From the NCBI GenBank assembly GCA_947063855.1, contig CAMSTW010000001.1:59466-123465 (forward strand): 64,000 nt of DNA, given 5' to 3'. A program made the translations under genes and the position numbers. The notes beneath the pieces were generated by a model. The model searched no databases. It was not told where the DNA came from and saw nothing but the letters and a program-made list of their open reading frames with translations. This DNA comes from an uncultured Dorea sp. (GTDB lineage Bacteria; Bacillota; Clostridia; Lachnospirales; Lachnospiraceae). This document shows, in pieces, positions 42,511-44,483 of the stretch (positions are counted from its first letter, which is position 1; each line of letters starts with the position of its first letter).

Positions 42511-42540
42511 GTTCCACAGAAAGTGTTCAAGACTGTAAAT

Positions 42541-43044
42541 TTACCTGCGTCTTCTGGGTAAATTTACCGGTTTTGGTTCGTATGCTTTTAATCCTTCATC
42601 ACCTGTTAAAATCTCGACTTGAAAACCTGCTTTCATATAATAATCAGCTACGTCTTTTATTGTTGTATCACCTATAGATAGTCCGGAGACTGCAAGGGAT
42701 GGCCAGTCAGTTGCAAGCTTTATTAAATTCTCTTCATTCCATAGCTTGCTTTGGAATGTAAATGCCGCCCAAGGTTCTTCAGCAGCAGCTGTTTTCTTTA
42801 TTATGTTTGAGAATTTCATGGCAGAAGCATAACGATCGCCATTTGCCTGGGCAATATGATTCCCTGTCTCAATTAAAGTTGCCAATGGCAGAACCAATAA
42901 ACTATTTTGGTTAATCTCACTATTTATTTTCTTAGATATTCTTTGGTAATTCCATTTATGATTATCTGAACCACAATCATCCATATAAGGTACTTTCAAG
43001 TATACACACAATATACTTGTATCAATAATTAAAACCTTCTTCAT
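42541..43044 (-). CDS. PIN-like domain protein coupled to an upstream ATPase
   Basis: IIDTSILCVYL, LATLIETGNHIAQ, SIGDTTIKDVADYY, LTGDEGLKAY: acidic residues spaced as in PIN nucleases. Confidence 0.65.
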   Translation of the reverse strand: MKKVLIIDTSILCVYLKVPYMDDCGSDNHKWNYQRISKKINSEINQNSLLVLPLATLIETGNHIAQANGDRYASAMKFSNIIKKTAAAEEPWAAFTFQSKLWNEENLIKLATDWPSLAVSGLSIGDTTIKDVADYYMKAGFQVEILTGDEGLKAYEPKPVNLPRRRR

Positions 43045-44267
43045 TGTGTCTCCTCCCGTGCGAGGGCAGCTTCTATCTTTCCACTTGCAGTTAATTCCCC
43101 GATATTTCCTGTAGATATCATTTTGGGCAGATCATGTATATCTTCAAGTAAGGTCAACTGGCTTTGTCCGTTTTTATCTCTGTGTGCAACTGTAATAAAT
43201 GGAATCATTGTAGTTCCGGCCGCGTCTAATAAGGCGGGATTATGGGTCGTTATTAACACGTCTATATTTCGTTCACAGCCTAATTCCTTTAGCATATTTA
43301 TTAAGATATCTACTCTAGATGGATGCAAACCGTTATCTGCCTCCTCGATAACGATGAGTTTATCGGTTTCGTTTGTGAGCATTGCAGTTACAATCGCAAG
43401 GAATCTCAAAGTACCGTCAGACATTCCTCTGGCATCAACAGCATTTTCAGCTTTGTCTTGCCATGCCTCCTTACAATAAAGCATGGCGTCTGTGTTGAAT
43501 TTTCCTATTCGCTCAGCCCATACACTCTCAATATCCTTTTCTGGAATCTTTTTTAAATAAGCAGTCAATTTCTCCTGGATCTTTTCTCGTTTTTGATTAT
43601 CTAGGGCGGCTAAAACACCCGCAATATTTGAACCGTCTGTAGATAATTTTTCTGCTAACGGGGAATAGTCACGCATATGATTTGGGATTGGGTCCAATAC
43701 GAAAATTCCGCTTAATTGCTTTGAAAGGCCGGTAGTAATATCAATAATTTCTTTTCTTTTTAACTGCAGAGTTTTGCTTTGATACAGGATTGATACGTTA
43801 CGGCTTAATTCAAAAATTTGCCCTTTCCCTTGTCTGCCTGTTGAAAAATAGGTTGGAATATTTAACAATTGATTATCTTGAAGATTTGTATAGAATAATC
43901 TTCGGGTATTATCTCCACATTGAAGCAGCTTTTCCTCTGTAATCAATGCTTTAGCAGTTCCTGTTTCTACGGTGATTGAATATTCATAATCTGTATTTTC
44001 AAATTCCATGATGACATTCAGGGTAAAGGAATTCGTCCCTTTTTGGCAGACCCACTCCATCCCGCCTCTTAAAGAGCACATAGAAATATCTCCGTTGATT
44101 GCCTGAAAGATGCCCGCACCTCCCGCGATTCTGCTTAAGAAGACCAGTGCGTCTATAGCGTTCGATTTGCCGCTCGAATTAGTGCCGATTACAATTGTCA
44201 GTGGATCTATATAAAGAGTACTCTCTTCATAGCTTTTCCAGTTTTTTAATGTGACGCTTTTTATCAA
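43041..44267 (-). CDS. AAA/SMC-RecF-like ATPase (AAA_15/AAA_21 type)
   Basis: GTNSSGKSNAIDAL Walker A; ARGMSDGTLRFLAI signature; KLIVIEEADNGLHPSR Walker B; TTHNPALLD; ATGA overlap with PIN-like gene. Confidence 0.88.
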   Translation of the reverse strand: MIKSVTLKNWKSYEESTLYIDPLTIVIGTNSSGKSNAIDALVFLSRIAGGAGIFQAINGDISMCSLRGGMEWVCQKGTNSFTLNVIMEFENTDYEYSITVETGTAKALITEEKLLQCGDNTRRLFYTNLQDNQLLNIPTYFSTGRQGKGQIFELSRNVSILYQSKTLQLKRKEIIDITTGLSKQLSGIFVLDPIPNHMRDYSPLAEKLSTDGSNIAGVLAALDNQKREKIQEKLTAYLKKIPEKDIESVWAERIGKFNTDAMLYCKEAWQDKAENAVDARGMSDGTLRFLAIVTAMLTNETDKLIVIEEADNGLHPSRVDILINMLKELGCERNIDVLITTHNPALLDAAGTTMIPFITVAHRDKNGQSQLTLLEDIHDLPKMISTGNIGELTASGKIEAALAREETQ

Positions 44268-44483
44268 GATATCATCTCCCTACAGTTATAGTATAATCCT
44301 GTTCTATGCTCATATATGAAAACCGAGTGTTTATTTGGTATTTTTAACACATCTTCTGTAGCTGATTTTTTTAACATTATAATACGTAATTTGTTATGTG
44401 TAAATATTGGTGATATATTTTTCTGAATTCATTTTCTATGGCATAGCTACAAGTTTGATGCTTCATCTCTTTTAATAAAGAAC

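Follow-up and report, generated by a model that had tools for sequence, protein, structure and literature searches.

An AT-rich ATPase and PIN-like gene pair in an uncultured Dorea sp. belongs to the candidate defence family PDC-M07

The presence of two overlapping, AT-rich genes in a purine-catabolism neighbourhood of an uncultured Dorea sp. raises the question of what this pair is and whether it may serve in defence against phage. The pair lies within the stretch of DNA analysed here (64,000 nucleotides, hereafter the window), and its features are collected in Table 1. The original prediction, made from the letters alone, described an SMC-like ATPase gene followed by a gene for a small PIN-like protein, and took the two for a horizontally acquired system in which an ATPase sensor gates a PIN-type RNase. 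Both reading frames proved to be as described, the stop of the ATPase gene and the start of the small gene do overlap in ATGA, and a ribosome-binding-like GGAGGAG is found within the ATPase gene 5-6 nt 5' of the small gene's ATG. The predicted AT-richness is also evident, with a GC content of 38.4% in the pair versus 52.7% in its flanks. The neighbouring genes between which the pair had been placed are confirmed by Pfam as encoding a carbamate kinase of the amino-acid-kinase family (PF00696) and YqeC (PF19842, E 1e-35); these are metabolic genes, and no defence island surrounds the pair in the window.

Table 1. Positions of the gene pair and of its sequence features in the window.
Feature	Coordinates	Strand	Evidence
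SMC/ABC-like ATPase, PDC-M07A, 408 aa, TTG start	43041..44267	-	Pfam AAA_21/AAA_15, PADLOC, Foldseek to PtuA/Rad50
PIN-like nuclease (predicted), PDC-M07B, 167 aa	42541..43044	-	PADLOC, acidic quartet, sub-threshold Pfam PIN matches in divergent members
ATGA stop/start overlap, 4 nt, ATPase end and small-gene start	43041..43044	-	Junction sequence
Promoter-like site TTTACA-17-TATAAT, 11/12, upstream of ATPase	44376..44404	-	Consensus match only
Inverted repeat, 13 pairs, over PIN gene 3' end; possible terminator hairpin	42535..42567	.	Consensus match only
Walker A GTNSSGKSN, residues 28-36	44160..44186	-	Motif reading
ABC signature SDGTLR, residues 283-288	43404..43421	-	Motif reading
Walker B / catalytic stretch EEADNGLHP, residues 308-316	43320..43346	-	Motif reading
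PIN motif I Asp, D8	43021..43023	-	Conserved in homologue alignment
PIN motif II Glu, E59 (ETGN)	42868..42870	-	Conserved in homologue alignment
PIN motif III Asp, D126 (GD)	42667..42669	-	Conserved in homologue alignment
PIN motif IV Asp, D149	42598..42600	-	Conserved in homologue alignment

By its matches to the profiles of PADLOC-DB 2.0, the pair belongs to PDC-M07, a candidate family that is catalogued but unvalidated. More specifically, the ATPase matches PDC-M07A with an E value of 1.4e-158 over residues 1-406 of 408, and the small protein matches PDC-M07B with an E value of 2.9e-50 over residues 1-159 of 167. The proteins of the relatives described below likewise match PDC-M07A and PDC-M07B, and the gene order and adjacency of the window pair agree with those of the family, no difference having been found. 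The pair had been presented as an unnamed one that matched no named system, with a PADLOC run proposed as a check; because both proteins match catalogued profiles at full length, that description does not hold and the pair is not an unlisted system. The sense in which it has a name is nevertheless a weak one, because PDC-M07 is a catalogue number for which no published function was found. Our literature search, which returned no paper naming PDC-M07, was made without subscription papers and preprints, so validation may exist there. 'Guilt-by-embedding' is the approach that yielded the PDC candidates, most of which are unvalidated (PMC10855318, PMC12988326), and two other PADLOC candidates, PDC-M63AB and PDC-S04, were inactive in tests (PMC12409345).

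The Walker A, ABC-like signature and Walker B motifs of the ATPase all read as predicted, and alignment with its homologues reveals invariant residues that include G33-K34 of Walker A, S283-D284-G285-T286, E309, D311 and H342. Pfam assigns the protein to AAA_21/AAA_15. Its structure model (pLDDT 71) resembles in Foldseek the PtuA proteins of retrons and Septu as well as Rad50 heads (E about 1e-12 to 1e-10), with values of 3e-12 for PtuA of retron Ec78 and about 2e-10 for E. coli Septu PtuA. The PADLOC profiles that follow PDC-M07A are HEC-01A (5e-45), PDC-M25A (2e-29), AbiLi (5e-28) and NsnB (1e-23), and the AriA models of PARIS match at about 1e-26; HEC-01A and PDC-M25A are the nearest to this ATPase by sequence after PDC-M07A itself.

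The small protein very probably adopts a PIN fold. The acidic positions that the original prediction pointed to are conserved, the quartet D8, E59, D126 and D149 being invariant in 15 of 15 paired homologues, while a cyanobacterial relative outside those 15 (L071) has Y in place of D8. We take the order and spacing of these acids to be consistent with PIN motifs I to IV, and from the sequence we infer a metal-dependent nuclease chemistry. No member of the small-protein family scores above the Pfam gathering score, and Pfam returned nothing credible for the window copy. Below that threshold, six divergent members match PIN, PIN_4 or PIN_12, PIN-domain models account for 10 of the 15 weak Pfam matches listed for divergent members, and in three members the PIN_4 match spans nearly the whole protein. 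An AF2 model built from six sequences attained a pLDDT of 68, and its top Foldseek match, VapC15, was not significant (E 0.23); because this model is poor, the assignment stops short of proof. In an hhalign comparison with 13 VapC-like proteins the first motif fell in register, but this alignment is not counted as support because one of the 60 column-shuffled controls outscored it. A sequence search of the PDB with the small protein and its family profile gave no real relative. Thus, the claim of a PIN-type partner stands as to the conserved acidic quartet and the weak, concordant Pfam matches, whereas a significant fold match was not obtained.

The pairing of the two genes is a constant feature of the relatives. 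The 16 loci compared derive from four Lachnospiraceae-type genomes (the window included), a further genome from that family, two additional ones from the phylum, Paraprevotella, a prophage-like contig, plasmids of Segatella, Dolichospermum, Lactococcus, Acinetobacter, Vibrio and Photobacterium, and a second copy in the genome of the window itself. In all 16, which span at least four phyla (Bacillota, Bacteroidota, Cyanobacteriota and Pseudomonadota), the ATPase gene and the small gene are direct neighbours on the same strand, separated by -8 to +13 nt. Between loci, the pairwise identities of the ATPases correlate closely with those of the PIN proteins (r = 0.93; 105 pairs from 15 loci), with none of 5000 label permutations as high, and such co-divergence is expected of partners inherited together.

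The genome of the window contains two further pairs. The second copy is a divergent PDC-M07 pair on contig C88 (L051:7174-8964; 31% identity for the ATPase and 38% for the PIN protein), situated downstream of a threonine synthase-like gene. A third pair, of ATPase and nuclease-type genes with a 4-nt overlap, is found on contig C36 (L055:4323-6328) and matches PDC-M25A/B in PADLOC; its ATPase is of the same kind, with another partner that has a weak match to DUF4276.

Two other genomes contain one member without the other. Genome G122 possesses an intact ATPase gene (L050:6460-8225; 78% identical) without a PIN gene or PIN remnant; a Phd/YefM antitoxin gene follows it and a carbamate kinase gene lies about 5 kb upstream, in a looser version of the window neighbourhood. 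In genome G347, by contrast, a frameshifted remnant of the PIN gene (L053:7681-7952) stands without the ATPase and follows a pseudouridine synthase-like gene. An intact orphan ATPase as against a broken orphan PIN gene fits a role of the ATPase as restraining partner, with one case of each.

The surroundings of the pair in the window and in its relatives argue for horizontal acquisition of a defence-type cassette, as had been proposed. The carbamate kinase-yqeC interval is occupied by unrelated genes in congeners G007 and G008, and in congeners G005 and G011, too, unrelated DNA follows carbamate kinase. The pair is absent from this slot in congeners, but a clean empty site was not seen, because they hold other genes there. 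In one congener the slot is filled by a sigma-factor and DUF2461 gene pair (L048:5922-7472), and at another locus (L007:2525-4152) a similar pair is separated from the PDC-M07 genes by about 2 kb, which may be shared cargo or coincidence.

Carriers of the pair among the relatives include a mobilisable plasmid of Acinetobacter (9 kb) and a Lactococcus plasmid of 11 kb. A viral-contig search by ATPase profile added one IMG/VR contig, prophage-like by gene reading, in which the pair has a GC content of 43% within flanks of 61%; the PIN protein as query gave no matches in phage records and two viral-contig scans. On plasmids of Vibrio campbellii and Photobacterium damselae (L060, L072) the pair separates hsdS from hsdR in a type I R-M locus, and in another relative (L068) it is flanked by genes with matches to the DUF1156 and DUF499 anti-phage families, with a DrmD-like helicase nearby, these matches being below curated cut-offs. 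Such embedding in defence loci, on which the listing of the candidate is based, is thus confirmed independently in these three relatives and is absent at the window locus.

The family is also rare. The ATPase was found in 2 of 396 genomes sampled from the bacterial family and the PIN protein in 3 of 396, one of them the remnant, while the phylum sample contained the PDC-M07-type family in 3 of 398 genomes and the Bacteroidales sample in 1 of 294, that one being the seed genome; at each level this is 1% or fewer. This sparse distribution argues against a housekeeping role, which the original prediction had named as the outcome to be expected if the pair were syntenic in all relatives; it is absent from almost all of them, and a housekeeping pair is rejected. 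Judged from the genes and their surroundings, the pair is a real, mobile and probably defensive two-gene module, with the standing of a candidate.

By analogy, the pair most likely acts in abortive infection in the manner of Septu and PARIS, with the ATPase gating a PIN RNase. The ATPase would dimerise as in other SMC/OLD-type heads and would bind the PIN protein, which the resting complex would keep inactive; an infection cue would then shift the state of the ATPase, and the PIN protein, once freed or activated, would cleave RNA, with tRNA as the likeliest target, so that translation in the infected cell halts. We favour this account of PDC-M07 as a mobile anti-phage module with somewhat better than even confidence. 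What it says of gating, of the RNA target and of an abortive outcome is modelled on Septu and PARIS. Septu cuts tRNA-Tyr (PMC13096335) and AriB of PARIS cuts tRNA (PMC12409363). A defence role has been validated for PIN RNases that have other partners, in DefensePredictor DS-3 and DS-5 (PMC13092281). Counted against a defensive role are the intact ATPase of G122 that is found where the PIN gene is absent, the metabolic setting of the window copy, the want of a significant profile or fold match for the small protein, and the inactivity of the two other PADLOC candidates when tested.

Some of these observations may be read differently. A toxin-antitoxin-type maintenance module, in which the ATPase neutralises a PIN toxin and the pair stabilises plasmids or islands rather than sensing phage, would agree with the VapC-type acidic quartet, with the occurrence on small plasmids, and with an orphan ATPase that is tolerated while the orphan PIN gene is broken, the pattern that a toxin held back by the ATPase should leave. 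However, this asymmetry amounts to one case each, the first gene has complete ABC motifs as in defence modules, the R-M and anti-phage-type embedding is typical of defence modules, and no VapB-like DNA-binding antitoxin is found at the pair; we consider such a module unlikely. PIN-like folds include structure-specific DNA nucleases, and besides its likeness to PtuA the ATPase model is similar to Rad50 and SMC heads, so that the ATPase could instead sense DNA ends or structures in the manner of Rad50/OLD while the PIN-like protein cuts invading DNA (FEN-like) and not RNA. The embedding of relatives in DNA-restriction loci agrees with this but says nothing about the substrate, the families matched weakly in Pfam (PIN, PIN_4 and PIN_12) are best known as RNases, and the 408-aa ATPase is without a long coiled coil; DNA targeting is accordingly given a low probability. 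The purine-catabolism neighbourhood of the window copy and the unvalidated state of most PDC candidates (PMC12988326) would suit a non-defensive accessory or decaying pair, for example a metabolic or regulatory RNA-processing module carried by chance, but with both frames intact, all motifs kept, and a family that is sporadic, plasmid-borne, repeatedly within defence loci and missing from almost all relatives, this appears very improbable.

If the ATPase-gated PIN RNase is active as proposed, a catalogued candidate would gain a mechanism, and PIN RNases, familiar chiefly as VapC toxins, would prove to be controllable by an ATPase sensor. Related ATPases in the genome of the window have different partners, PIN twice and DUF4276-like once, which makes modular effector swapping directly testable there.

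Comparison with known systems places the pair close to several of them. With Septu (PtuA and PtuB) it shares a PtuA-like ATPase fold, a small nuclease-type partner and a two-gene operon; however, PtuB is an HNH nuclease, whereas the window partner is PIN-like and has no HNH match in Pfam or PADLOC. PARIS (AriA and AriB) and OLD-type systems similarly combine an AAA_15/AAA_21 ATPase with a nuclease effector, but the TOPRIM domain of AriB, or of the OLD C-terminus, has no match in either window protein and the ATPase ends at 408 aa. The toxin of VapBC is of PIN type and has this acidic quartet too, but the upstream gene in the window encodes an ABC ATPase and not a VapB-type DNA-binding antitoxin. 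Membership in Septu, in PARIS/OLD and in VapBC is thus ruled out because the partner gene differs. HEC-01, PDC-M25, AbiL and Menshen have the next-closest ATPase profiles in PADLOC, but their partner is of the DUF4276/RloB type, as in the pair on contig C36. In ptuXYZ, proposed for defence, a PtuA-like ATPase likewise occurs next to a PIN-like-domain protein, but there are three genes including DUF262, and the PIN-like domain is inactive, without catalytic residues, and fused to a YoeB-like RNase (PMC11980606); the window pair has its acidic quartet intact and no fusion. ATPases of this kind pair with the nuclease folds HNH, TOPRIM/RloB and HEPN (PMC10440598), and given these varied partners and ptuXYZ, the present pair fits the pattern with an intact PIN partner. 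We are evenly divided as to whether PDC-M07 constitutes a separate branch of ATPase-gated immunity, in which an intact PIN RNase would replace the effector of Septu and PARIS and an SMC-like sensor would take the place of VapB.
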